DNA of 64,000 nucleotides from Pseudoips prasinana. Its lineage: Eukaryota; Arthropoda; Insecta; Lepidoptera; Nolidae. The DNA lies in assembly GCA_951640165.1 (NCBI GenBank), contig OX621237.1:12090001-12154000 (forward strand), written 5' to 3'. Position numbers and translations under genes: made by a program. The first letter of the stretch is position 1. The number at the start of each line of letters is the position of its first letter. The notes under the pieces were generated by a model that did not search any database, was not told the origin of the DNA, and saw only the letters and a program-made list of their open reading frames with translations. Shown here in pieces: positions 6,522 through 56,833 of the stretch.

Positions 6522-7568
6522 TCAGTAATCGGTATTTCCTCCTCTAACATTAATCACACAGCGGCAACGATTTTCCATACTTAAAATTAAGGTGTCAATG
6601 TCTTGCTGGGGTATGCAGTCCCAAGTTCTTTTTAAATGTTCGAAAAGTTGTTCTTCTGTTGTCAAGTTGGGCGGAAAATCCCTCAATGCTCTTCGCTGTA
6701 ACATGTCCCAGGCGTGTTCAATTGGGTTTAAGTCTGGCGACTGTGGAGGCCAATCTAATACCTGAACATCGTGTTCTCGAAGGGCGGCCCTCACCAGCCG
6801 CGCTGTATGGGAAGGTGCATTGTCATGCATGAGCTGAAATTCTTGCCCCGTTAGGGCCCTGAGCTGGACAATGACACGTTCTACTACCTCCTCACGGTAT
6901 CTATGGGCAGTCATGCTGCCCTGAATCCAAATGAGTTGGGTTCGTCCGCCGATTCGTATTCCTGCCCACACCATAATTGTCCCGCCTTGGTAAGAGTGGA
7001 CCTCCTGTGGATGTCGGAGACGGCTGACCCTGCCTGGAGTTCTCCAAACGCGTGTTCGTCTCGAATCTGGATGAAATCCATAGCGGGACTCATCAGTGAA
7101 CAGCACCAATGACCATTGTTGATCACTCCATGTCAAATGTTCTTGAGCCCATAAAAGTCGCCTACCGCGATTGCCACGTCGCAGCGCTGGGACTCGTAGC
7201 GGTCTGCGAGCATGAAGACCAACTTCATGCAGCCTCCTTCGCACGGTTTGGTCGCTCACCAGCAGCTGCTGACCCTCCTGGAGCCTTTGCACTAGTTGCA
7301 TCGCTGTGATATTGGGTAGTCTTCTGGCGGTCATTTGGAGAAATCGATCCTGTCTCTGAGTGGTAACACGATATCTACCTGTGTGCCGTTCTGCCACATC
7401 TCCAGTAGCGCGATAACGTGACCACAGCCTGGATACCACATTTTGGCTTGTGCCCAGAGACTCAGCAACGACGCGTTGAATAGCACCGTTTTGTAACATG
7501 CCAACTGCCCGTAACATTTCATCTCGACTCAAATGATGGCGTGGCATGACGCTAAAAAGCTTACACAA
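6522..7568 (-). CDS. Tc1-family (IS630-Tc1-mariner) transposase, uninterrupted ORF
   Basis: This is a cut-and-paste DNA transposase. The frame is open for 348 residues; the likely natural start is the internal Met of MPRHHLSRDE (about 7547), close to the usual 340 aa. An N-terminal helix-turn-helix region (residues about 10-120, with a 'VAESLGTSQNVVSRLW' helix) is followed by the catalytic core. The first Asp is in LFTDESRYGF, the second in LMHDNAPSHT and the Glu in SPDLNPIEHAW. Second Asp and Glu are separated by 34 residues, so the triad is DD34E as in Tc1. There are no stops or frameshifts, which suggests a fairly recent copy. I could not find convincing terminal inverted repeats or a TA duplication in the flanks, so the element limits are open. 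Confidence 0.92.
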   Translation of the reverse strand: MCKLFSVMPRHHLSRDEMLRAVGMLQNGAIQRVVAESLGTSQNVVSRLWSRYRATGDVAERHTGRYRVTTQRQDRFLQMTARRLPNITAMQLVQRLQEGQQLLVSDQTVRRRLHEVGLHARRPLRVPALRRGNRGRRLLWAQEHLTWSDQQWSLVLFTDESRYGFHPDSRRTRVWRTPGRVSRLRHPQEVHSYQGGTIMVWAGIRIGGRTQLIWIQGSMTAHRYREEVVERVIVQLRALTGQEFQLMHDNAPSHTARLVRAALREHDVQVLDWPPQSPDLNPIEHAWDMLQRRALRDFPPNLTTEEQLFEHLKRTWDCIPQQDIDTLILSMENRCRCVINVRGGNTDY

Positions 7569-7639
7569 CCAATTGAGAAAAGAAAATAAAACAATTTATC
7601 AGGTTTTCTTCAATTAACACGCAAAAAAAATTTTAATGC

Positions 7640-14639: not shown

Positions 14640-14768
14640 ATTATTTCCAGTGGCTATTTTGATCACGGGTCATGCACATCGATGTCCGCTGGATAGGCGG
14701 CGTCAGTCAGTCGCGCGGCGCTGGTAGACCCACCATGCCATTAAGCGCAGTACCATCGCAGAACCGAC
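14640..14768 (+). promoter_or_regulatory. Probable promoter/5'UTR of the SmydA gene with overlapping uORF
   Basis: G+C content rises just before the gene. Two TCAGT initiator-like motifs lie at 14703-14711. An ATG in a good context (CACCATGC) at 14735 opens a 28-codon upstream frame that runs past the main start and stops at 14821 in another frame. The transcription start is inferred, not seen. Confidence 0.4.
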
Positions 14769-15921
14769 ATGGCGAGCTCCGCTTCAGGAAAGGAAACTAT
14801 ACTCTTGACGGAATACCTTGAAATGTCGTCAGAACCCCTCTGGATTATCAATCAATCTAGCCTAGGTGGAAGGGGCTTATTTGCAGCTCGACCAATCAAG
14901 AAAGGAAATCTTATCTTTCATAATAAACCGTTGGCCGTGGCCTCGCGAGATATTACGGGACTTGTTTATTGTTCAGTTTGCTACAAAAGGAGTGAATCGT
15001 GTCGCGCTTGTGAAACATGCCTTCTAATCATATGCTCTGAAGAATGTAAGACATCTCATCAACATACCGCAGAATGTGACTTTATCAAAAACAATTGGAA
15101 ACCCAAGTCACAATTTCCCAAGCATGCGGAAATTCTTGCGCATTGGCAGATTTACATACGTTTTCTATTATTACCCAATGAACATAAGTCACTGTTATCG
15201 ATCCTGCAACGTTCTAAAGTGGATTTTAATGCTGAAGAGCTGCAAATCATGAGGACTGATTATAATATACCTGAACAGCATGTCGCATTTATTAAGTACG
15301 TGCACTCAGTGATGAGAATAAATTCGTTCAGAATTGCTGATGACGCACAAAACAAAAAGGTACCATTGCGGGGCCTATATCCCTTATCATCGTTTTTGAA
15401 TCACAGTTGTGTGCCAAACACAAGGAACGTATTTAGGAAAGATTACACAATGGCTGTCTATGCTACTAAAGATATTGCTGTTGGCGAAGAGATTTGTACG
15501 TGCTACACTGGACTTCTATGGTGTACGCCAGCAAGAAGGACCCAGCTTTATAAAACTAAAATTTTTTGGTGCAAGTGTGATAGATGTAAAGATAGCGCTG
15601 AAATGGATACGAAATTATCAGCTCTCAAATGCTTGAACAAAGAGTGTGTGGGTGTCTTGCTGCCGATGTCACCCTTGGAGGCTCAAGGGGAGTGGTGTTG
15701 TGATAACTGTAGTACCAAAGTTGCACCAGCTGAGATAAGCACCATTCACAGCATTTTAGGTAGTTTAGTCGGGTCATTAGACCTGGATGATCAGTTTCGC
15801 CTAGAATCATCTATTTTAGCAAGGTTAGCTGAATTTGTACCGTATACCAATCATATCTTTATTGATATACGATTAAGACTAGTGCTGAAGCTCGGATTTA
15901 CGGACGGATTAAAACTGAATG
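14769..15921 (+). CDS. SmydA: SmydA-type SET/MYND domain protein, exon 1
   Basis: This encodes the catalytic part of a SMYD-like protein lysine methyltransferase of the arthropod SmydA group. The split SET domain starts with GGRGLFAA (residues 33-40). A MYND zinc finger follows, with Cys at 68, 71, 78, 81, 84, 89 and 93, His 97 and Cys 103. The SET core motif SFLNHSCVPNT is at about 208-218, GEEICTCYTG at 239-248, and the post-SET cysteines are C268, C270 and C273. The frame runs to a stop at 15956, but a donor (AATG|gtacat) at 15921 joins in phase 1 to exon 2 at 25758. The C-terminal helical region continues in exons 2 and 3 (490 aa in total). The substrate is unknown; the insect-specific SmydA group is poorly characterised. 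Start chosen: first ATG in this frame, preceded by CGAC. Confidence 0.92.
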
Positions 15922-16569
15922 GTACATTTTTTATTCAATTCTTGTCCAGCTTTTGATGTGATAATAAGCTAGAATACAGAACATATCATTCCGCTTCACT
16001 AAATATATAACATGTAAGTACCTACTCAAGTAATACATAACATTAAAGTCATAACATAACTATTATTTTATATATATCTTATACCTATTGCTGTAAAATT
16101 ATTTGAGTATCAGTTAATAATTGACCAAATTACCTGAATAATACTCTAATTACACTTAAATTAATGTCATGTATTAAATCTATAACATTAATATCATCTA
16201 CAACCCGTAGATGATAAGATCCTCGAATAAACCCTCAAAATTACAAACGTCAAAATGGCGGCATAATTTTACGATCGCTGTATCTACATACTCAACCGGA
16301 ACTATTTGATACCTAGCATTATAATTTTCGTACCTGTATAGTCTAGACAATACTATCCCCCTTTCTAGACGCATCAAGATGGCGGGATCACCCCTTTTCA
16401 TCAAAATTGAATCGCAGAGTATGCAGTTTAATAAAGTGGGAAATAAATTGAATGTAAAGGCCTATATTATCTAGTCTACGGAGCTACTCAAGTTATAATG
16501 CTGGATATCAAAAAATGAAAGAAAAAGATGGCGGGGTCACACCTTGTAAAACTTTATCATCACTATTCT

Positions 16570-35794: not shown

Positions 35795-36165
35795 GTAACA
35801 ATTTTTTCAAGTCCTTTTTACATGCTTATAAGCACTAACAAAACATTTTGACCAAGCTCTCCTAAATTTGATAATTTATACTCGCAAACACTAATAATGA
35901 GTGCTGCTATAATGAGCTTGATGCAGTCTATTAGATTTTTTGACAACCATGTTTTGTACGAGATTTTTGACATAAAACTCGTTAACTATGGGTATTTATA
36001 TCTCTTAACTATGTGATTATCTACCTACTGTAGGTTTATAATCACATAAGATTTTTAGGGTACAAAATTTACAAGTTATAAATATAATTTTATTGTAAGT
36101 GTAATCAACTGTAGTTTGGAGATCTCAGTTAATATCTGCAGTGAACTGTCCTTTCTGCATTTCAG

Positions 36166-36729
36166 AAATAATGTAAGTGAATTGATATTTGTGCCCTATG
36201 CCCAAAAGGATTATGATGCTTATACAGCAAAAATAAGAGAAGTAATTGCTCCATGGGGATTCAAAGTTACTGGACTACATACATTTCCTGATACAAGCAA
36301 TGCTATCAACTCTGCGAAAGCAGTATTTATTGGTGGAGGCAATACATTCCTTCTTTTGAAAACTCTTTATGATCACAATCTTGTAAATTTAATTAAACAG
36401 AAAGTTGATGAAGGGAGCCTGGTTTACATGGGCAGCAGTGCAGGAACTAATGTGGCAACGAAAAGTATTCATACTACAAATGACATGCCCATCACTTATC
36501 CTCCTAGTTTTGAAGCCATTGGAATAGTCCCTTTCAACATAAACCCTCATTATATAAATCATGCAGATAGTCCTACACATAAGGGTGAGACTAGAGATCA
36601 AAGGATAGCTGAATTTATACAAATGAGCCATGCAAACCCAGTGTTAGGCTTGAAAGAAGGCTCTATTCTACATATTCATGGAAATAACTTGTCAATCAAA
36701 GGAGTTGCTGGAGCAGTTTTATTCAACAA
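36166..36729 (+). CDS. Alpha-aspartyl dipeptidase, exon 2 (catalytic core)
   Basis: Starts after 'ctgcatttcag' and completes an Arg codon (AG|A), giving NNVSELIFVPYAQKDYDAY. The nucleophile elbow YMGSSAGTNVAT places the catalytic Ser at residue 124. Asp139 (TTNDMPI) and His161 (NPHYINH) match the spacing of the Ser120-Asp135-His157 triad of the Salmonella enzyme. FIGGGNTFLLL (about 87-97) is another family hallmark. All key residues are intact, so the enzyme is likely active. The donor at 36729 is AACAA|gtaagt. Confidence 0.95.
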
Positions 36730-36944
36730 GTAAGTAATTTCATAAGCTTTCATTTTGTGCTCACATTGAAAAAAGTATCTTCCTGGTAGTTTCTTTCTAT
36801 TGTTAAATTCAATATTGTTGTATAAGTTCTAACACAGCAGATGTCAAAATAGAACTTTTCCAGAGAGCAATAAATCTTTTATTTAGCATCAAACTACTGT
36901 TTATAGTTATAATAATACTGTATATAAGACTTGTATGTAACCGT

Positions 36945-42439: not shown

Positions 42440-45400
42440 ATTTTATTTTATTTTATTTTATTTATTTGGTTCACCGACAATTGTTTACACCAACAGTACA
42501 CAAGATAACAAATATATGATGCAAGTAGCAGTGTAACAATCACTTATAGGTAAACACCACATGGGTAATTAACAAATAGTAAGCTAACCTAAGACTGCAT
42601 TACGCATAATTATGTAGAATACAGAACAAATGGTATACATGAAAAAAAAAAATATTAATAACAATAATAACACAATAAAAGAAAGAAAACCGTAGGGTAC
42701 AAGGTTAACATATATCTAGCAGACAGTTAAAAATTTTTGATTTTAATTTTGCGAGTGAGTCGTGATGTATATCAATTTGATCACTGCAGTGATTTATGAT
42801 CTTGCAAAATCTGGCATACGGCGAATTAGCGCCTAAAACAGTTCGTCTAAATGGGGGGCAGAGTGGAGTGATAGAATTGCGTGGTATTCTGGAGGGTACG
42901 CGGAATTTGTACAAGGTTAATAAACTGGGGCAGTCAATGGAAAAATTTAAAATTTTGCACGTGAATAATGCGTCATTGAAACATCTTCTCTTGTCAAGCG
43001 TATTCATGGCAAAGTGCTTTAATCTAGCCTCGTAAGTAGGTATCTTTTTTGCGAGTCCTGCAGAAAATGCAAGATGCCATATAAAGCGTTTCTGGATTCG
43101 TTCAATACGCAAGCTGTGCACAGCATAATGAGGTCGCCATACCACGCTACAATATTCTAAAGTAGACCTCACTAAACTGTTAAAAAGAATGATTTTTGTA
43201 TTACTTTTACGAAAGGTTTTACAGTTTCTTATTACATATCCCAGTATTCTTGATGATTTTTTAATTAAATTGTTTAAGTGCGGTGTAAAGGTTAGTTTAT
43301 TGTCAAATAGGACTCCAAGGTCACTTATAACGTCTACTTCTTTAATTGTTTCAGAATTAATTATATAATTAGATGTAATTAAGTTATTTTTTCTAGAATA
43401 TTTAACGTGATAACATTTCTTATAATTTAAATACATTTCATTCTTATCACACCATTGAACCAATCTGTCTAGATCCCTTTGTAAGTGTTTTGTGTCATCT
43501 TCATTTGTTACTATTCTAAGAAATTTGAGGTCATCAGCATACATAAAAATCTTGGAATACCGAAAACATGTAGGTATATCATTAATAAAATAATTAAATA
43601 AGACGGGCCCTAAGTGAGATCCCTGTGGTACCCCTGAAGAAATGTTATACAATGTCGATTGAAACCCATTCACTACTACGTAAAATGATCTGTTAGCCAG
43701 ATATGAACTTATCCAGTTCAGCAAATTCCCGGTGATTCCATAAGCCCTTAATTTTTTTATTAATATTTTGTGGGAAACTTTGTCGAACGCTTTACTGAAA
43801 TCCGTATAAATTACATCTGCTTGATGACCTGAATCAATAGCCTCCACTAAAGTTTCTGTAAATGACACCAAATTCGTGCTTGTAGAGCGTGCACAAACGA
43901 ACCCATGTTGGTAATCACTTAGGTAAAGTTTCAAGTGGTATTGAAAATACGGACAGATCAGGGATTCAAACAGTTTGGCAAATGTTGAAAGAATGGATAT
44001 CGGCCTGTAATTGGATATGCAATCGTCGCTGTCAGATTTATGAATTGGAACAACTTTTGCCGATTTCCATTTTTGAGGAAATACGCCGGAGGATAAGGAT
44101 TTGTTAAAAATTATCTTGAGAGGACAAACCAGTTCAGATGCGCACGCTTTAATAAAAAACGGAGGTATTTCATCGGGCCCGGCACTCTTTTTTGTATCGA
44201 TATCTTTTAACTTTTTAAGTAGAGCCGCGGATTGTATTACTGGTGTTGTTAAGCATTCGCTGTTATTATTTAATAATTTTAAGAATGCGGCGTCATTATA
44301 ATCACTACTTATTCGGGTAGCGTTTCTATAAACAGATGAGAAATACGATGCGAATAAATTACATACTTCTGTAGCAGTAGAAACAATTGTGGTTCCATCT
44401 GTCATAGTCATGGGGTATGTGCTAGACCCCCCGCGTTTAGTCTTTGCATGAGACCAGAACAACTTAGGATTTTGCTTTAGTTCGTCCTCCAGTTTTTTTG
44501 TGTAGTCGTTGTAACTAACAGTTGCTAAATGGTTACAACGTTTACCAATGAGTCTTAACTGAATTTCATCCAACGGGTTTTTATACTTGTTGTATCTCAA
44601 TCTGATTTTGTTTTTGGTATTTAATAATTTTATTAATGTTCGGTTAAACCATGGCGGAAATTTGTGACTTTTCGGAAGACGACATGGTACAAATTTTTTT
44701 ATAACATTATTAATAGTTTCATAAAAACTCGCCAGCATCTCGTCCACTCCACCTTGCCCCTTAAATAGGTCAGCCCAGTCAACTTCCTTTAAAAAGTTTC
44801 GGATAGCTGTGTAGTCGGCAATATAAAAGTTTGGCTTAATTGTTGAATTGTTATATGGTAACCTTGCCTTTCCATTAAAATGAATGACTATATCTAGTGG
44901 GGGATGCTGTAGATCAACATTAGACAATGGATTTATGGTCTCAGTTACGCTGCATAGTAAGTATGTTGAGAAAAAGAGATCTAGTACACGGCCTGCAGCA
45001 TTAGTTGTGTGGTTAAATTGATTTAATCTGTTAACACATGCAAAGTCAACCAATAATTCACTTGTACTATGTAATCCAGTTTTGCTATTTGGGCCGTTTA
45101 CCAAGTTCCAATCGATACTACTCAAGTTGAAGTCGCCCACAATGTAAACATTTGAATCTTTACTTTGCTCAAAAACGCTATTACAATTGTTTAAAAAGTA
45201 CTTTAGAGAAGAGTGACGTATAGGTGGGGGCAAGTACACTGCGCAGAGAACCATTCGACGCAGGTTACGTGGTAGTGGTAAGTCTAGTATGACCCACAAG
45301 TCTTCGCAATTACTCTCCCAGTTCATAGCACGTTTAGATTTTAAGCTTTTTTTGACAGCAATTAAAACACCACCACCTTCTTTACCGTTTTGCAAGCTGG

Positions 45401-45500
45401 AGGATTCCCTGTCCCTTCTGTATACCACATATCTATCGTCGAATAGTTCACTGCTCAACACAGAGCTGTTGAGCCAAGACTCAGTCAGAATTATTTATAT
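42440..45500 (-). mobile_element. LINE D: Jockey-like non-LTR retrotransposon, 5'-truncated
   Basis: Minus-strand element with a 3' tail of (TTTTA)n at about 42436-42470 (read on the plus strand) and a 3'UTR to 42704. The 5' end is lost inside the endonuclease domain near 45500, just before '...ILTESWLNSSVLSS'. It sits about 190 bp upstream of the putative Flacc start and is in the same orientation as Flacc. Confidence 0.9.
42705..45461 (-). CDS. LINE D ORF2 (endonuclease-reverse transcriptase), 918 codons uninterrupted
   Basis: This protein nicks the target and copies LINE RNA. Endonuclease (N-terminal part missing): VYIVGDFNLSSIDW at about 97-110. The reverse transcriptase spans about 400-720: NYRPISILSTFAKLFE, then YTDFSKAFDKVSHK (about 550-563), SSGVPQGSHLGPVLF (about 607-621) and FMYADDLKF (about 639-647) with the catalytic YADD. 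The C-terminal region contains STLEYCSVVWRPHY and IQKRFIWHL, typical of Jockey-group elements. No stop or frameshift interrupts the frame. The true start codon is lost with the 5' truncation, so the first Met is arbitrary. The copy is recent but unlikely to be autonomous. Confidence 0.95.
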   Translation of the reverse strand: MLSSELFDDRYVVYRRDRESSSLQNGKEGGGVLIAVKKSLKSKRAMNWESNCEDLWVILDLPLPRNLRRMVLCAVYLPPPIRHSSLKYFLNNCNSVFEQSKDSNVYIVGDFNLSSIDWNLVNGPNSKTGLHSTSELLVDFACVNRLNQFNHTTNAAGRVLDLFFSTYLLCSVTETINPLSNVDLQHPPLDIVIHFNGKARLPYNNSTIKPNFYIADYTAIRNFLKEVDWADLFKGQGGVDEMLASFYETINNVIKKFVPCRLPKSHKFPPWFNRTLIKLLNTKNKIRLRYNKYKNPLDEIQLRLIGKRCNHLATVSYNDYTKKLEDELKQNPKLFWSHAKTKRGGSSTYPMTMTDGTTIVSTATEVCNLFASYFSSVYRNATRISSDYNDAAFLKLLNNNSECLTTPVIQSAALLKKLKDIDTKKSAGPDEIPPFFIKACASELVCPLKIIFNKSLSSGVFPQKWKSAKVVPIHKSDSDDCISNYRPISILSTFAKLFESLICPYFQYHLKLYLSDYQHGFVCARSTSTNLVSFTETLVEAIDSGHQADVIYTDFSKAFDKVSHKILIKKLRAYGITGNLLNWISSYLANRSFYVVVNGFQSTLYNISSGVPQGSHLGPVLFNYFINDIPTCFRYSKIFMYADDLKFLRIVTNEDDTKHLQRDLDRLVQWCDKNEMYLNYKKCYHVKYSRKNNLITSNYIINSETIKEVDVISDLGVLFDNKLTFTPHLNNLIKKSSRILGYVIRNCKTFRKSNTKIILFNSLVRSTLEYCSVVWRPHYAVHSLRIERIQKRFIWHLAFSAGLAKKIPTYEARLKHFAMNTLDKRRCFNDALFTCKILNFSIDCPSLLTLYKFRVPSRIPRNSITPLCPPFRRTVLGANSPYARFCKIINHCSDQIDIHHDSLAKLKSKIFNCLLDIC

Positions 45501-47589: not shown

Positions 47590-47899
47590 CGACTTACCAT
47601 ATTCAACTCTCTAAAACACCCTTCTGTACTTTAACTTCAGTAATTAATAACTTCAGCTTCAATAATCACCAGGTTGTAAGCTCGTTCATCAGGGAAAAAT
47701 ATATTCATGGTGGCTCTCTAATTCTCATAAATAAGTTGTTAAAGTTTAAAGAAAGAAGTGATGTTGTGAGCCTTTCTGTTGAGCGAGTTGTAGAGATTTC
47801 ATGTGTTGAGTTGGAGCAATGTATTGTTTTGAGTCCAAACCTCCTTGTGCACCATTTGATACTTTTTCAAATATTATGGAGGATGCATTAAATAAATTA
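47590..47899 (+). pseudogene. LINE A segment 1: endonuclease, N-terminal part
   Basis: Reads SSFIREKYIHGGSLILINK, then LKFKERSDVVSLSVERVVE and SCVELEQCIVLS. After a small indel it continues KPPCAPFDTFSNIMEDALNK. Segment ends at TTA 47897-47899, the target of insert 1. Confidence 0.8.
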
Positions 47900-49984
47900 C
47901 ACTGGTCAACACTGGTTTTGCCACACGAACTTTGATAGCTAATTTTGTTTTATCAATCTACCCTCATTATTAAATCACAGTTGTCATATGTCAATTAGCC
48001 TCATATTTGTTGTGATACGGTAATACTCATAACTAGTACTACGGCATTAAATTAACAGAAATGCTTACAAGTAAATCGTTATAAAATATTTGTCGTTGAA
48101 TTTGAACACTTTTTTTGTGATTTATTAACCGTGTGAACATGTCGAGGAAGTGTAATAATAACCCTAACTCTTTTTGTTATGTCTGCGGAGAACTAACATT
48201 CAAAAAACAACGACGAAATTTAACGAATCTTGTGTTGGAGTGTTATCACCAATGTTTTGGTTTTTCTGTCGCCCATCAAGACAAATCCTGGGCCCCTCAT
48301 ATCTGTTGCATAACGTGTGCGAAAAATTTAACTGACTGGAAGAAAGGTGCACGACCTATGCCGTTTGCTGTACCCATGATATGGACTGAACAGCGAGATC
48401 ACGTTTCAGATTGCTATTTTTGTCTCACTGACATAAAAGGTATAAATTACAAGAAAAAAAACACAGTTATTTACCCTAACTTATCATCGGCTATAAGACC
48501 AGTCTCTCATTGTAAAAAAATGTCAGAACTAATACCAGTTGCAACTACGTCTGTTGAGAACGACAATGTACAACCGTCCACTTCAGGTCAATGTGTTCAC
48601 GAGGACAATGACTTTGAGTTTGAAGAAATTGTAAACGAGCCACATTTGATAACTCAAGGAGACCTAAATGATTTGCTTCGGGATTTAAATTTGTCAAAAA
48701 AGCAGTCAGAACTATTAGGATCTCGTCTAAAAGGATGGAATTTGCTACATCATAATACAAAAGTTAGCTATTTTCGAAACCGTGATCAACACGTATTTTT
48801 CTCAGGATGGAGATTTGGTGTTTTGCAATAACATAAATGAGATTATGAAAATGTTGGACATAGATTTTGATCTCTCTCAGCGGCGTTTATTCATTGATTC
48901 TTCGAAAGCAAGTCTAAAAGCAGTTTTATTGCATAATGGAAATATGCTTCCGTCTGTACCTCTGGCCCATGCTGCGAATATGAAAGAAACCTATGAAAAT
49001 ATGAAACTCTTACTTGAAAAAATAAATTACAGTACATATTCCTTCAAAATCTGCGGTGATCTTAAAGTTGTTGCACTATTGCTTGGACTTCAGCTGGGTT
49101 ATACAAAGTTTTGCTGCTTTTTATGTGAATGGGATAGCCGAGACAGAACTAAACACTATATAAAAAACATGGCCTTCGCGTGCATCGTTAGTTCCTGGGC
49201 AAAAAACGTAAAGTATTTACCCCTTGTACAGCCAAATAATGTGCTTCTACCACCATTGCATATCAAATTAGGATTAATAAAAAATTATGTGAAGGCAATG
49301 GATCGCAATGGGAGTGGATTTTTGTATCTAAAAGAAAAATTCCCTAAAATAAGTGATGCAAAGATAAAAGAGGGTATTTTTGTTGGCCCTCAAATTAGGG
49401 AGTTAATAAAAGATTCGACATTTGAAGAAAAATTAAGCGATTTAGAAAAATCAGCATGGAAGGCTTTTAAAAATGTTGTTGCTAATTTTTTGGGTAACCA
49501 CAAGAGTGACAGCTACAGAGAATTGGTTAGCGAGCTATTATTGTCATATCAAGCATTGGGTTGCAACATGTCACTTAAGATCCATTTTCTAGACTCGCAC
49601 CTGGATTTTTTTCCTGACAATTTAGGGGCTGTCAGCGACGAGCACGGTGAGAGGTTCCATCAGGAAATTTCTAATATGGAAAAGCGGTACCAGGGCAAAT
49701 GGAGCCCAAATATGTTAGCAGATTACTGCTGGACAATTAAAAGGGACCAACCACAAGCTAAATATTCAAGAAAATCTTTATTATTTATTACGTCATTTAT
49801 AAAAAAATAAACTTGATTTACGAGATGTGTTTTTTTCTTAATATTTTAAATTACTCAATAGAATAAAATCCTTGTCTAGCAAATTCTTTTTAACTGTTTA
49901 TTTTTTCGTACAATCACGAGTTAAAGTAAAAAATACCAAAAAAGTCCGTGTGGCACGACAAAGTTAAAATTTTGTTGACCAGTG
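47900..49984 (+). mobile_element. Insert 1: CACTG-ended DNA transposon with TTA target duplication
   Basis: 2085 bp. The ends are inverted: left CACTGGTCAACA, right the complement of CACTGGTCAACA. A second inverted block, GCCACACG(A/G)ACTTT, lies 10-30 bases further in on both sides. TTA is duplicated at 47897-47899 and 49985-49987, and removing the insert plus one TTA restores LINE A's frame. The ends and 3-bp duplication resemble CACTA-type elements; the protein (48133-49810) is described separately. Confidence 0.88.
48133..49810 (+). pseudogene. Transposase-like protein of insert 1, one frameshift
   Basis: Two overlapping frames (48133-48831 and about 48800-49810) form one protein of about 560 residues, broken by a one-base indel in a T run near 48800-48806. 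The N-terminus has a Cys/His cluster (FCYVCGE, then CCITCAKN, then DCYFCLTD with a later HC), probably zinc-binding. An acidic linker follows. The second half has candidate RNase-H-like catalytic acids: Asp in RLFIDSSKASLK, Asp in FKICGDLKVV (followed by FCCFLCEWD, a CxxC), and Glu in VSDEHGERFHQE. The C-terminus ends NMLADYCWTIKRD and then a basic tail. I recognise related sequences as recurrent uncharacterised proteins in arthropod genomes, but cannot name the superfamily. The catalytic assignment is inference. Confidence 0.75.
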
Positions 49985-51075
49985 TTATCTAACAGTCATA
50001 AAACAGTTATCATTTGGGGAGATTTTAATATAAATATTTTGGAGAAAAGCGCAATAAGTTGCAATTTATTAAATTTGTTTAAATCCTATAATTTATATCA
50101 CAATTTTACAGAACCAACTAGAGTAACTGCTACAAGTGCTACATGCATTGATAATATATTCAGCACTGTAAATCCTTTATTAAAATCAATAATCAATAAA
50201 ATTCAGTCAGACATAACTTATTCAAATGCTCCAAAAATTAAAAGAAAACATATAAGCTATATTCCATTTAGTGAAAACCACTTAGAAAAATTTAAATGTA
50301 ATATAGTAAAACAAATAGCATGGCTGCCCTATCATGATAATCCGGATCACTTGTACAACTCTTTATGCAATTTGATTAATGATGAGTTTTGCACAATATT
50401 CACACCCAAACAACTGACTGTAAGTGACCATCTGGTATTCAGTGATTGGGCAACTCCAGGCATCTATAAAAGTCGAAATCGGTTGTATGAATTGTATGAA
50501 GAAAGATCCCATAATCATTAATACAGCTTTTCAAGAATATGTGAAACAATATGCCAAAACATTTAGACGAGCCTGTAACGCTGCTAAATCTTTGCACATA
50601 AAAAATATACTTAAATCTTCTACAAATATAATCAAAACTACTTGGAAGATAATTAACAGAGACAGGTAAAACAAAACTACATAGTCGTGATTTTAACTTA
50701 GTAATAAATAACATAGATATTAAAGGCGATTTGGAGATTGCAACTGAGTTTGTGATATTTTTCGATATTCCATTCATAATTACTAACTCTCTTTCATGTT
50801 CTTCTACATCTGCTGAGCAGATAGATACTCAAGCAAAGCGTAGGGTCGTGTGACACAGTTTTTTAATTTTTGGTGGTTAGCCCTAAAGATATTTTAAATG
50901 CTTTCAAGAGTATTAATATGAAAAACACAAAGGATGTGTGGGGTCTATCTGTTAAGACTGTTTCGTCAATTATTACTATAATCGCCCCACACTTAGCTAT
51001 TGTGTTCAATTGCTGAGTTGCATCAGGTGTATTTCCTGACTTGATGAAGTATAGTAAAATCATTCCTTTGTTTAA
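49985..51075 (+). pseudogene. LINE A segment 2: endonuclease end to RT start
   Basis: Begins in frame with TVIIWGDFNINILEKS (endonuclease core), then EPTRVTATSATCIDNIFST. After a frameshift at about 50500 it reads FQEYVKQYAKTFRRACNAAKS, and later SPKDILNAFKSINMKNTKDV and SGVFPDLMKYSKIIPLF. Ends at TTAA 51072-51075. Confidence 0.85.
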
Positions 51076-53459
51076 CCCATTTAAGCCCGCTGTCCCCATT
51101 TGGGGCCACTTCTTTAAGTACCCACATTTTCTAAATTATACTGACTAACTTTAGTTGGCAGGCAAATATTGAGTGCCAAGGAGTGTAACTTTGTGGAACA
51201 ATTATAAAATTTTGTAATTTATTGGATTTAGTGGTTGGAATAACTTAATTTATTCACTTCATCGAACAAATAGGTAATTGACCAAAGGTAAGTCATACTT
51301 TTTATATTTACAATAGTATTTATCTATCTATTTTTGTATTTCTCACTTTGCCATACTTTGTTCTAGTAAATAATGCAATTATGTCAAGTATTTTACAAGA
51401 TTATACGGTAAAGGGAAATATTTTAGTAGGTGTCCCCAAATGGGTCCAATGGGCTGATTGCTATATTTTTTATTTTTATTCGGCAGGTTTAGTTTCGGCG
51501 TGAACAATGACTAAGCGATCGTTTGACGTATCAAATGATTATCGAGGACTTGAGGAGGCTATAGAAAACATCTTGAATGAAGAGGATGATCAAGATATTA
51601 CGTACGAAATAGTGGCCATTCCTCCAGACCCGAGTGTTCTGACGGATGAAGAAGAAGGCGATGAGGACGATGTCCAACAAAACATTCTTCCGCGTGATAT
51701 CCCAGGTAGAGTTGAAGTATTTGAGTCCAGGAACGGAGGAGAGGACGATCAATGGGATAGCAGCGATGATGAACCGTTACAACGACACAGGAGAGTAGAA
51801 ATCCAGGAACCTCGTTGGCGTAAATGTGATGGTTCCTATGTCGACATGCCTTCAGCGATACATAATGTTCAGAAACGAAAGGACGACCTTGTAAACCAGC
51901 TCAAAGACCAAGCGCCAGTCAACATTTTTGAAAAGTTATTTGATGTGGAGGTATTTGATATGATCCTTATAAACACGAAGTTATATGCCGCACAACATAA
52001 CAAACATTGATGATTTGAACATTGATGATGACTTCCAAATAACTGTTGATGACATCAAATTATTTCTTGGCATTCTTCTCTTGACTGGATATCACTCACT
52101 TCCACGAGAACGGTTGTACTGGTCTTTAGATGAGGACTGCAATGTTACCATTGTTTCAAAAGCAATGTCAAAAAACAGATTTATGGAAATAAAAAAAATC
52201 TTGCATTTTTGCGACAACGAAGCTGCTGCTACGTCCACCGATAAGATGTTCAAAGTACGACCACTTGCTGACTTGCTAATCAAGAAATTCCTGGTGTACC
52301 CCCCACTGGTGTAGTCCACGAGCATCTATTGGTTGATGAATCAATGGTGAAATATTTTGGACGTCATCCAGCCAAGCAGTTTATAAGGGGCAAGCCCGTA
52401 CGATTTGGCTATAAAAACTGGATGATTGCAAGTGCTGATGGTTATTGTTATGCCTTCGATGTATACTGCGGTAAATCAGCAGGGGGATCCAGTAATGAGC
52501 CTTTGGGATCAAAGGTGGTGAAGGGTCTGTTGGAAAAAATAAACTGCGTTTCACATGAGCATATCGTGTATTTTGACAATTTTTTCACCACTCATGCATT
52601 GCTACAAGATCTGCATGACGCTGGTTATCGGGCAACTGGTACTGTAAGAGAAAATAGAACTAAGAAATGCCCACTAGTATCTGTCAAGGACATGAAAAAG
52701 AAGAACCGAGCAGAATTTGATTACCGGTTCGATACAGCCAATCAAATTTTGTTCGTGCGATGGCTTGACAACAGTGTTTGTACCATGGGTACAAACTACG
52801 ACTTCGTTTACCCTCTTGGTAAAGTAAAAAGATGGACCTCTGAAGAAGGAAGAAAGGTGAATATTCCATATGTCTTCCAGAACTACAATAAAGGCATGGG
52901 CGGAGTCGATCAAGCTGACCAGTCTATTGCAGTATACAGAACAGCTATACGAGGCAAAAAATGGTGGTGGGTTCTGTTTACATACATGCTGGACTTGGCT
53001 GTAGCTAATGCTTGGCGTCTCCATGTTATGACCGCTGAAGAGAAACTAGACCAGCTACAGTTTCGCCGAAGTATCGCCCGGGGTTATTTGAGGAGTGTAG
53101 GTACTGAAAGATCCGATGGAAGGCGTCGTAAACCTTCTTCTGTGGTGCCAAGTGTGAGTCAAGATGGTGTTGGACACTTCCCCCAGAAACTGCCTAGCCA
53201 GTTACGATGCCACGAATGTCACATGAAAGCACGTTGGGAATGTAAAAAATGCCGCAAAACATTGTGCATCGAAAAAGGATGTTTTGAAAATATCATACAT
53301 GAGCCCATTGGCCCCATTTAAGGACGGTGTTTTTTAATACATAAGGAAGTATTTTTTTGCAGGTTTTTTTTTTGAAATTGTCTTTCTAGCCTCCAATAGT
53401 CACATTAATAAAGCTTTTTTCAAAAATTTACTACTGGTTCATATTTGGGTCCAAATGGG
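51076..53459 (+). mobile_element. Insert 2: piggyBac-type transposon at TTAA
   Basis: 2384 bp between TTAA copies at 51072-51075 and 53460-53463. The ends are CCCATTT... and ...AAATGGG, a 7-bp perfect inverted repeat. A C/G-rich motif, CCCATTTGGG or its complement, recurs inside both ends (about 51095, 51430 and 53447), as expected for transposase-binding repeats. It interrupts the LINE A reverse transcriptase exactly at ttgTTTAAAgct. Confidence 0.93.
51507..53321 (+). pseudogene. piggyBac transposase with two frameshifts
   Basis: Three pieces: 51507-52010, 51985-52314 and about 52317-53321. The acidic N-terminus (NEEDDQDITYE, EEEGDEDD) is followed by the DDE_Tnp_1_7 core. The catalytic Asp residues are all present: HLLVDESMVKYFGRHP, IVYFDNFFTTHAL and KGMGGVDQADQS. 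GKPVRFGYKNW is a family signature. The C-terminal Cys-rich domain reads CHECHMKARWECKKCRKTLC. The first break lies at about 51985-52010 and the second in a run of six C at about 52299-52305. The rest is open to a stop at 53321. The copy is recently inactivated, or carries sequencing errors at the C run. Confidence 0.93.
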
Positions 53460-54383
53460 TTAAAGCTGGTGATACTTCAGACTCAGACCCTTCAAATTTT
53501 CGACCTGTTTCCGTGCTGCCCACTCTTAGTAAAATATTTGAAAAGCTTATACTTAGCCAGCTGCTCAGACACTTTAATACACATAATTTACTACACCGGA
53601 AACAGTTTGGATTCACAAAGGGTTGTTCAACCATAGATGCAGGGGTCAACTTATTAAAAAGTATATTAGCGGCTTGGGAAGACTCGCAAGATGCATTAGG
53701 TATCTTTTGCGATTTGTCCAAAGCGTTCGATTGCGTTCATCATGATACTCTGGTCAGAAAATTACACCATTACGGTATTAGGAACAAGGCTCTCGAACTT
53801 CTGACTTCTTACGTGGGCAATAGAATTCAGAAGGTTGAAATAAACGGTAAAATATCTCCGGGATCGCCAGTGGTAATGGGCGTCCCACAGGGGTCAATTC
53901 TTGGCCCATTTTTGTTTTTAATTTATTTAAATGACTTACCTTACTATGTAAGGGATAAGCATGAGATTGTGTTGTTTGCAGATGATAGTTCCCTGACATT
54001 CAAAATAAACCGACAATTAAGCAATTTAGACGATGTTAATGATGCAATCTCTAAAGTTGTTCATTGGTTTAATGCCAATAATCTTGTGCTTAATGATAAG
54101 AAAACTAAAGTCATAAAATTCACTACACCGAATGTGAAACAGGCGACAACCAATGTACAACTTAATGGAGCTAGGTTGGACCCTGTTGAATCAACTGTAT
54201 TCTTGGGTATCACTATTGACTCAAAGCTAAAATGGAGCCCAAAAATAAAAAACTGTCCAGCAAATTAAGTTCTGCAGCATATGCAGTGAAAACTATTAGA
54301 CGGCTGACTGATGTTGACACAGCTAGAATGGTTTATTTCAGTTATTTTCATAGTGTATGGAATTCTTCTCTGGGGCAGGGAGT
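53460..54383 (+). pseudogene. LINE A segment 3: reverse transcriptase
   Basis: In frame from the TTAA: KAGDTSDSDPSNFRPVSVLP, GIFCDLSKAFDCVHHD, VMGVPQGSILGPFLFL, IVLFADDSSLTFK and STVFLGITIDSKLKWSP. A stop or indel at about 54265 and another near 54350 separate VKTIRRLTDVDTARMVYFS from YGILLWGR. It ends where LINE B begins. Confidence 0.88.
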
Positions 54384-56833
54384 TTATCGTGTTAGGTGAC
54401 ATGAACTTGAATATGAATGTAGTGAATAAGGATGTAAAAACTATGAATGACATATTATCGATAAATAACCTTTCGAACATTGTAGACTTTCCTACAAGGG
54501 TGACGAATTCTACGAGTTCCAGCCTTGATCACGTATACGTCAGCCGCGAGTCCGCGGTAGCGGCTCGCGCTGCGCCCGTTCACACTGATCTTAGTGATCA
54601 TTTTGCAATTCGTGTTGTCGTGCCGTGCGCGTCGGGCCCGGGGCCCGCGCCAGCTCGCATGTTCAGGTCATACAGTCAGGCTAACAGGCACAGTTTTGTC
54701 TTAGCCTTAAATAGTGTGGATTGGAATGAAATAGAACAAAAACACTCTACCTCGTCCGAGTCACTAGCCGCAGCAGTAATTTATATAGTCAAAAATAAAA
54801 TCGACATTTGCTTTCCCTTAAAAAAAGGAAGAATACCACATAGAAATGTATCCTGGATAACGGATGAAATAGTTAATTTTAATTTATTTTTGACAGATTT
54901 GCATAAATTGACATTGAAATTCCCATCAAATACTGACTTGTTACTATTATTTAATCAATACAAAATAAAATATGACAACCTCCTTAAAAATGAGAGAAGT
55001 AACTACTATTGTAATGTAATTGGTAAATCTAATAATTTAATTAAATCCATGTGGGAAGTAGTTAAGACGGAAACTGGTAGAGACAGAAGATATCACGATT
55101 ACACTGAAACACTGAGAAAGCCTGATGGGTCTAAATTTCTGAGCAAGACTGACGCAGTTAATGCGGTCAATGACCATTTTGTAAATTCTGCAACAACATG
55201 CGGCGCGCCTCCCGCCGATGTCGCCGAAGCAGCTCGCGTGTTGGCGGCGGTGCGTCCACCAGCAGACCGTTCGCTAAGGATTAGACCGTTTACCCCGGAT
55301 GAGGTATTTCGCATACTGGTGAGTGAATTAGCCCATAAAAAGTCTAAGGATGTATATGACATATCGGTCTCATTACTTCATACTGCTGCAGGGCCCTTAT
55401 CACCCATACTTTCCTGCCTGTATAACAAATGTAGTACTGAAGGACGATATCCCCCTGCACTGAAACATGTGAAAGTATCACCTGTGTATAAAGGGAAAGG
55501 TAAGCAAGAGGAAATAAATAGCTATAGACCTGTGTCAATAATACCGGGTATAGCAAAAATTTTTGAACACGGTTTAAGTACCCGGCTTACTGAGTACCTA
55601 ATGAATTGCCAATCTTTAAGTGATAGACAGTATGCGTATCGTAAAGGCCTTTCCACAACATGTTTAGCCAGGGAACTGATTCGCCGAATTCTCGATGCAC
55701 GTGAAAGCCAAAAGCAGGTCGCAGTAATCTTCTGTGACCTTTCGAAAGCTTTTGACGTTGCGGACCACGAGGTCATATCGATGAAGATGAAGTATTACGG
55801 TATAAATGGCCCAGCATTAAAACTGTTTTCTGAATTCATGTCGGACAGATGTCAGGTGGTCGTGGGCGATGGTGGGACTGTGAAATCAAAGCAATTGCAG
55901 ACCGTAATAGGCGTTGCTCAAGGCTCATCAATTTCCAACATTGTATTCTCCCTTCTTCTTAACGATTTACCAGAGTCCATTAATGACGGGCATATATTAA
56001 TGTATGCCGATGACGTCGCGGTTGTCGTAAGCGCTACAACCTTGGAAAGGCTGGAGCAAAAGCTGAACGTAGTGGCGCGAGACCTACATCAGTGGTTTAA
56101 AATAAATGGTCTAATATTAAATGCAACCAAAACTCATTTTTTGCATTTTAACATTTCTGGAAAAACTTATAGACCACTTGCAGTTCAGGTAGGGTCTATA
56201 AAATTGGAACAGTTGAAAACCATCCCATTTCTGGGCTTCCAAATAGATAGTCGCTTGACTTGGGAGGCGCACATTGACAAACTTTGCGAGAAGGTTGGGA
56301 ATGCTTGCTTCGCACTGTGGCGCATTTCTGCTATTCTGCCTTATGACATGGTCCGGAGTTGCTACTTTGCCTCCGTACACTCGCTTTTACAATATGGCGT
56401 CGAACTCTGGGGACGCAGTGCTGAAGCGGGGCGTATCCTCAGAATGCAAAAGAGGGCAGTAAGAGCCATAGCGCGAGTGCCACAGGAGACATCGGCAGCA
56501 CCCCTATTCCGGTCCATGAATATACTGACTGTCCCGGCGTTGTTGTGCCTTCAAGTGGCGTTATTTGCGTACGATAACCATGAAGAGTACTTGAGGCGCG
56601 GTGACGGTCAAAAGTATAGCATGCGGTATAAAGACCGCCTGCGACCAGTGCCACGTCACCTAGAAAAAACAGCTAGGCTAGTGCATGCAATGGCGCCGGC
56701 CGTCTACAACAGACTTCCAGAGGACGTGAGAAAGCCCGGCTCTAGAAATGCGTTTAAATATAAGACTAAAAAGTGGCTTGTTGAACAGACATTTTATTCA
56801 TATGACGATTTAATGAAACTGCCATTGACATAG
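54311..56833 (+). CDS. LINE B endonuclease-reverse transcriptase ORF, chimeric 5' end
   Basis: An 840-codon frame. The first 25 or so codons come from LINE A; LINE B starts at about 54384 with FIVLGDMNLNMNVV, inside the endonuclease domain (DLSDHFAIRVVV follows). Reverse transcriptase: SYRPVSIIPGIAKIFE, FCDLSKAFDVADHEV (about 474), IGVAQGSSISNIVF (about 535) and LMYADDVAVVV (about 563). The template-grip motif reads GVAQGS where most LINEs have GVPQGS. The C-terminus has LLQYGVELWGRS and RMQKRAVRAIARV and ends YDDLMKLPLT. There are no stops, so the insertion is much younger than LINE A, but the 5' truncation makes it non-autonomous. A protein started from the LINE A Met is fortuitous. Confidence 0.93.
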   Translation: MLTQLEWFISVIFIVYGILLWGREFIVLGDMNLNMNVVNKDVKTMNDILSINNLSNIVDFPTRVTNSTSSSLDHVYVSRESAVAARAAPVHTDLSDHFAIRVVVPCASGPGPAPARMFRSYSQANRHSFVLALNSVDWNEIEQKHSTSSESLAAAVIYIVKNKIDICFPLKKGRIPHRNVSWITDEIVNFNLFLTDLHKLTLKFPSNTDLLLLFNQYKIKYDNLLKNERSNYYCNVIGKSNNLIKSMWEVVKTETGRDRRYHDYTETLRKPDGSKFLSKTDAVNAVNDHFVNSATTCGAPPADVAEAARVLAAVRPPADRSLRIRPFTPDEVFRILVSELAHKKSKDVYDISVSLLHTAAGPLSPILSCLYNKCSTEGRYPPALKHVKVSPVYKGKGKQEEINSYRPVSIIPGIAKIFEHGLSTRLTEYLMNCQSLSDRQYAYRKGLSTTCLARELIRRILDARESQKQVAVIFCDLSKAFDVADHEVISMKMKYYGINGPALKLFSEFMSDRCQVVVGDGGTVKSKQLQTVIGVAQGSSISNIVFSLLLNDLPESINDGHILMYADDVAVVVSATTLERLEQKLNVVARDLHQWFKINGLILNATKTHFLHFNISGKTYRPLAVQVGSIKLEQLKTIPFLGFQIDSRLTWEAHIDKLCEKVGNACFALWRISAILPYDMVRSCYFASVHSLLQYGVELWGRSAEAGRILRMQKRAVRAIARVPQETSAAPLFRSMNILTVPALLCLQVALFAYDNHEEYLRRGDGQKYSMRYKDRLRPVPRHLEKTARLVHAMAPAVYNRLPEDVRKPGSRNAFKYKTKKWLVEQTFYSYDDLMKLPLT

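Follow-up and report, generated by a model that had tools for sequence, protein, structure and literature searches.

A DNA transposon of very probable Chapaev3 type in Pseudoips prasinana, with inner end blocks at depths that differ by ten base pairs

The analysed window was a 64,000-bp stretch of the Pseudoips prasinana genome (assembly GCA_951640165.1, contig OX621237.1, positions 12,090,001 to 12,154,000 of the forward strand), and its own numbering is used throughout. A DNA transposon of 2,085 bp occupies 47900-49984. It is bounded by perfect 12-bp terminal repeats CACTGGTCAACA (47900-47911 on the plus strand and 49973-49984 on the minus strand) and has TTA at either flank; the left TTA (47897-47899) is preceded by A, as in Chapaev3, and the right TTA (49985-49987) is directly followed by T. 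An initial annotation of this DNA had claimed the limits, the length, the repeats and the flanking TTA, all of which could be read directly in the sequence. The second inverted block that it had described was located as well. This block, TGCCACACG(A/G)ACTTT, reads TGCCACACGAACTTT at 47919-47933 (plus strand), starting at position 20 of the left, short-spaced end, and TGCCACACGGACTTT at 49941-49955 (minus strand), starting at position 30 of the right, long-spaced end.

The transposase gene of the window copy is frameshifted and split over two overlapping plus-strand frames, 48139-48828 and 48731-49807 (the latter also delimited as 48791-49807). The first, which runs to the frame break, contains a Cys/His cluster (C5, C13, C16, C57, C60, H88, C92 and C95), and the second contains D256, D310, C329-C332, LH at 377-378, H486-H491 and E505/E508. 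Residues are numbered after an open copy elsewhere in the genome (L004), in which the protein (P0001) fills a single frame of 551 aa; this copy differs from the window copy at about 49163-49215. A single protein with a Cys/His cluster and a D-D-(CxxC)-E arrangement had been annotated here: the motifs are present, but the window copy is not intact, being divided between the two frames.

The transposon interrupts a LINE frame, the left stretch of which (47855-47899, plus strand) joins across a single TTA to a right part (49985-50521, plus strand) that was recognized by the joining of the frame and by a GDFNIN motif. The joined flanks give the unbroken reading FDTFSNIMEDALNKLSNSHKTVIIWGDFNIN, as expected from the earlier claim that the interrupted frame proves the TTA duplication; the empty site is shown by the frame alone. 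The LINE label of this frame depends on the GDFNIN motif, which we take to be as in LINE endonucleases, and 49979-50518 had no Pfam match at E 0.001. Other mobile elements were seen in the window: a broken piggyBac-type element at 52272-53318 (plus strand; DDE_Tnp_1_7 match, E 1.5e-46) together with 51504-52314, within which 51504-52010 (plus strand) resembles, by eye, its N-terminal part; a Tc1/mariner-type transposase frame of 357 aa at 6525-7595 (minus strand; DDE_3 and HTH_Tnp_Tc3_2 matches); and long LINE-type frames with RVT_1 matches at 42708-45494 (minus strand) and 54308-56830 (plus strand), open over 929 and 841 aa. Host-like coding frames were present for a SET-domain protein (14745-15953, plus strand) and a peptidase S51 family protein (36059-36730, plus strand).

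A DNA search of the host assembly (1.126 Gb, 56 contigs) resulted in 42 matches, eight of which, the window copy included, were near full length, the others being shortened or internally deleted. The seven further near-full copies were 96-99% identical and 2.05-2.10 kb in size, and together with the one open frame this likeness shows that the family moved recently. The 15-base pattern TWACACTGGTCAACA matched the genome 68 times and its reversed control once; with the 42 DNA matches, this places the occurrence of the repeat beyond chance. Single copies, such as L002 and L005, have mutated ends. Two copies on different contigs, L010 and L013, have an identical left flank (ggcagtcgacctattatacttatta), so this insertion was probably duplicated along with its surroundings. 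The ends, the duplication and the further genomic copies bear out the first identification of the element as a DNA transposon.

With 79 of 677 candidates scored, a protein search of the same genome gave at least 91 matches, some of them to relatives of about 50% identity. Compared with the window family, termed lineage A, lineage B (L039 and others) was 51% identical, lineage C (L049) 49% and lineage D (L055) 43-70% in three pieces. The terminal sequences were CACAGGTCTGCA in B, CACAGGTCTGCG with CACTGGTCTGCG in C and CACTGGTCAACA in D, and open frames of 567 and 565 aa were present in B and of 562 aa in C. At least 39 internally deleted copies of C were found, of two kinds (35 and 4; 40 of 108 candidates scored), and the deleted copies of D comprised nine pairs of about 1.13 kb, eight of them read at the ends, plus pairs of 1.3 and 2.4 kb. 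Another lineage, G, was discovered via its end sequence and has transposase remnants 28-56% identical to A. When 20 of the 27 unassigned single TWACACTGGTCAACA matches were read by eye, 17 were of G type, two of D type and one of another type. The divergent locus L068/L077 had no recognizable ends and was excluded from the end counts. At G000:C33:35931958-35948101 several same-strand transposase matches were spaced about 3.8 kb apart, as if within a tandemly repeated segment; L061, the one copy read from it, belongs to lineage B.

The motif residues of the transposase were invariant in A, B and C. This applied to D256 (in FIDSSK), D310 (in CGDLK), C329, C332, L377-H378, H486, H491, E505 and E508, and in the N-terminal set to C5, C13, C16, H54, C57, C60, H88, C92 and C95. 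The D and L068 pieces had the same residues wherever readable, with the exception of H54 in D, so that the N-terminal cluster is otherwise kept in A to D; one L055 piece was misaligned at H486-H491, and both histidines were present in the next L055 piece. In lineage G, aligned by eye, a glycine stands at the position of E505 and E508 is retained. On this alignment E508 rather than E505 may be the catalytic third acid, although the pointer is weak because the G copies are defective. No sequence match to the transposase was obtained in Pfam, NCBIfam or solved structures (PDB), apart from one chance-level hit. P0001 matched no Pfam family up to E 10 and hence not the CACTA transposase model, the catalytic domain of which we take to be of the Transposase_21 type. 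A single-sequence structure model of 48791-49807, made to look for the RNase-H fold with clustered D, D and E of CMC/CMCT transposases, was of low confidence (pLDDT 42.9, pTM 0.27). No relative was found in the viral or genome contig collections searched; DNA patterns derived from its peptides hit 3 + 3 + 1 loci in viral contigs, none of them a relative by tblastn.

Identical 3-bp flanks, expected by chance at about 2% each from base composition, were present at 20 of the 26 insertions of lineages A to D that had both ends (A 10/12, B 9/12, C 1/1, D 0/1). The duplication was TWA in 18 of these 20, and 19 of the 20 had A before and T after it; the six two-ended insertions lacking it were L002, L021, L043, L047, L050 and L055. 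L061 was included in spite of its mutated right end. Left out were L013, which has the left flank of L010, and the one-ended copies L011, L014, L015, L017/L020, L018 and L026 of A and L039, L040, L041, L053 and L057 of B. The ends were also read in 20 of the at least 39 deleted C copies, of which 16 had a 3-bp duplication, in every case TWA (16/16) and in 15 of 16 within the A..T context. The remaining four comprised two that fit 4 bp by eye and two without any duplication; the former, L089 and L111, fit TTAT or TAAT, and duplications of 3-4 bp are described for Chapaev in general (PMC4079192). Convergent TWACACTGGTCAACA pairs, paired by eye from the list, had the same TWA on both sides in 17/17 cases, six of which are A copies already counted; the pattern demands TWA, not agreement between the sides. 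In lineage G, L159 had TTA on both sides and L160 had TTA versus TAA and thus no duplication. The TTA duplication initially proposed therefore holds at the window site but not for the family, the target of which is TWA (TTA or TAA). The annotation had called for a search for other copies with the same ends and flanks, and had named copies with other ends or duplications as evidence against its view; most copies keep the ends and the TWA duplication, with some misses, so that this counter-evidence did not arise.

Chapaev3 transposons are of the cut-and-paste kind and are distant relatives of the ancestor of the antibody-gene recombinase. Chapaev3 is described as having CAC/GTG termini and TWA duplications always flanked by A and T, and a 2,289-bp element encodes a 556-aa transposase with C(2)C, LH and H(4)H motifs; most members are single-exon and deletion derivatives are present (PMC4079192). 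EnSpm, Mirage, Chapaev and Transib all have C(2)C and H(3-4)H, placed after the second D and before E, as their common mark (PMC12730594). Here, the ends of A, B, C, D and G are all CAC...GTG, the duplications are TWA in the 18/20 and 16/16 proportions given above, preceded by A and followed by T, with L055 (0/1) as an exception, and the 551-aa transposase lies in one exon in L004. The three motifs correspond to C329/C332, L377-H378 and H486/H491. Garfield, Merrow and Conan have the CAC..GTG ends, the A-TWA-T target, C(2)C/LH/H(4)H and deletion derivatives in common with the present element (PMC4079192). The window element is 2.085 kb long, whereas full Chapaev3 members measure about 2.3-2.5 kb; the transposase has 551 aa here and 556 aa in Garfield_BM, and one exon here and two in Garfield and Merrow (PMC4079192). 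The initial view of a possibly undescribed family with an unplaced transposase was not supported as to the kind of element: the ends, the A-TWA-T target, the size and C(2)C/LH/H(4)H are those of the published Chapaev3 description (PMC4079192). By these published marks, not by sequence comparison, the element is very probably a Chapaev3-type transposon of the CMC/CMCT group, and we file it as a new member of Chapaev3, a known kind.

Two other placements were weighed. The element could represent a separate, undescribed superfamily of CMCT (EnSpm/CACTA, Mirage, Chapaev, Transib, Plavaka and others) that merely resembles Chapaev3 in ends and target. EnSpm has also been given CAC..GTG ends and 3-bp duplications (PMC12730594), and the transposase had no profile match to any named family. 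The absent Pfam match says little, however, because Pfam may contain no Chapaev model, and Chapaev3 is reported to have the A-TWA-T target, the size, the single exon, LH and H(4)H all together (PMC4079192), which makes a separate superfamily improbable. The link to CACTA-type elements drawn in the annotation stands as a relation to the CACTA side: CACTG-like ends, 3-bp duplications and the CMC group are common to both. A CACTA/En-Spm element proper is nevertheless very improbable, given the Chapaev3-type A..T context in 19/20 and 15/16 duplications, the single compact 551-aa gene, a target context and gene layout like those of Chapaev3, and the lack of any Pfam match, that to the CACTA transposase included. 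An animal CACTA type with CCC ends and 2-bp duplications (PMC1636069) does not fit the element. A literature search with the literal end sequences returned only unrelated titles among the matches listed.

The ends of this very probable Chapaev3 member are asymmetric. Behind the terminal 12-mer each end has an inner block, and the depths of the two blocks differ by 10 bp, about one helical turn. The block starts at positions 20 and 30 in A, 17 and 27 in B and in D, and 21 and 31 in C (L049); lineage B has further blocks at 53/63 and 61/71. With one representative per lineage, an offset of 10 was the best of 51 offsets in A, B, C and D, and the best score was reached at any offset by 0/2000 shuffles for A, 0/2000 for B, 2.25% for C and 1.3% for D. 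For C, the offset was again 10 (shuffle frequency 0.43%) in a consensus built from 20 deleted copies. Both G copies read had the same offset, with shuffle frequencies of 9.15% for L159, weak alone, and 1.15% for L160. Relative to the gene, the long end is the 5' one in G and the 3' one in A to D, and the inner-block sequences differ among lineages. In representatives of all five lineages, each element thus carries a short end and an end with 10 bp more spacing, despite different blocks and a different side of the gene.

The spacing varied somewhat among individual ends. Among distinct A ends the block started at 20 in 14, at 30 in 11 and at 29 in one, with no block match in eight; for an older A-like type (CACTGGTACACA), which may overlap the A count, the start was 30 in three, 29 in one and none in two. 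Lineage B had 13 ends with a start at 17 and another 13 with a start at 27, one each at 23 and 25, and three without a match; B_L048 had an offset of 8. The new convergent pairs, meant beforehand as a test of the offset, proved to be D derivatives and hence represent no further lineage; 10 of the 11 were read, and the offset was 10 in four and 9 in six, the difference lying within a run of A.

A function of the one-turn asymmetry in transposition would be one reading of these data. Chapaev3 may be subject to a spacing rule akin to 12/23, with one short and one long end per element and a transposase that needs both, and we give this nearly an even chance. Somewhat less than an even chance goes to a functionless accident of inheritance, in which an ancestral insertion into one of the ends simply persisted. 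All five lineages share a common ancestry and come from a single genome, so that the spacing is possibly inherited and not needed; A, D and G have T-rich and TGCC-like letters in common in their inner blocks, and single copies have spacings of 8 and 9. An accident accords less well with the change of block and spacer letters in step at both ends while the offset stays at 10, or with the reversed position, relative to the gene, of the long end in G.

If the count starts after the first seven bases, the window element would have spacers of 12 and 22 bp, and B and D spacers of 9 and 19 bp; we do not press the likeness to 12/23, because the spacer count depends on the chosen block start. The end difference of 10 bp is neither the 11 of 12/23 nor the 4 of the 27/31 ends of ProtoRAG. 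Spacers of 12/23 are known from recombination signal sequences (RSSs) and a few Transibs, and outside V(D)J recombination this asymmetry is described for some Transib elements only (PMC8355894). The activity of ProtoRAG depends on its unequal 27/31 ends (PMC8289069), and invertebrate RAG-like elements are expected to be relatively insensitive to asymmetry (PMC7204232). Transib, RAG1-RAG2 and ProtoRAG have the CAC terminus in common with the present element, and some have unequal bipartite ends (PMC4411706, PMC8355894, PMC8289069, PMC7204232); Transib/RAG likewise have C(2)C and H(3-4)H in the stretch from the second D to E (PMC12730594). ProtoRAG duplications are, however, 5 bp long (PMC8289069) and those described here 3 bp, and unlike RAG1-RAG2 this is a single-gene element of 551 aa with no RAG2-like gene. 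An N-terminal 'Chapa' zinc finger is described for Chapaev3, and TransibSU is described as having it in the form of a truncated N-terminal portion of RAG1 (PMC4411706). When a RAG1 zinc region was compared with the Cys/His cluster, the score was above 500/500 full shuffles, but 2/500 shuffles that kept Cys and His were higher. Asymmetric Chapaev ends were not found among the open-access main articles listed by the searches, and may already be known; neither 'asymmetr' nor 'spacer' occurs in the main text of PMC4079192, and PMC4411706 mentions Chapaev without the word 'asymmetric'.

By analogy with DDE transposases in general, the single 551-aa protein would bind both ends and cut at the terminal CAC. 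The element would then be joined into A-TWA-T targets by 3-bp staggered cuts, chemistry that would leave the TWA duplications observed. Each end is bipartite, consisting of the terminal 12-mer and an inner block, and the inner blocks of the two ends differ in depth by about one helical turn. The transposase might pair one short-spaced with one long-spaced end, its inner contacts then lying one turn apart but facing the same side of the helix; both steps are tentative and fall just short of an even chance, and our high confidence concerns the placement as a Chapaev3-type transposon and does not extend to the pairing of the ends. Copies with internal deletions, which retain these ends and have duplications of their own, would have been moved in trans.

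A protein family that has no match in Pfam or NCBIfam is now tied to defined ends and a target site. The spacing rule, if true, would make the pairing of unlike ends an older or commoner trait of the RAG/Transib/Chapaev group than one would conclude from the few asymmetric Transibs, ProtoRAG and the RSSs. If the one-turn difference held in the Chapaev3 elements of other animals, these would provide an outgroup for testing the origin of unlike-end pairing.
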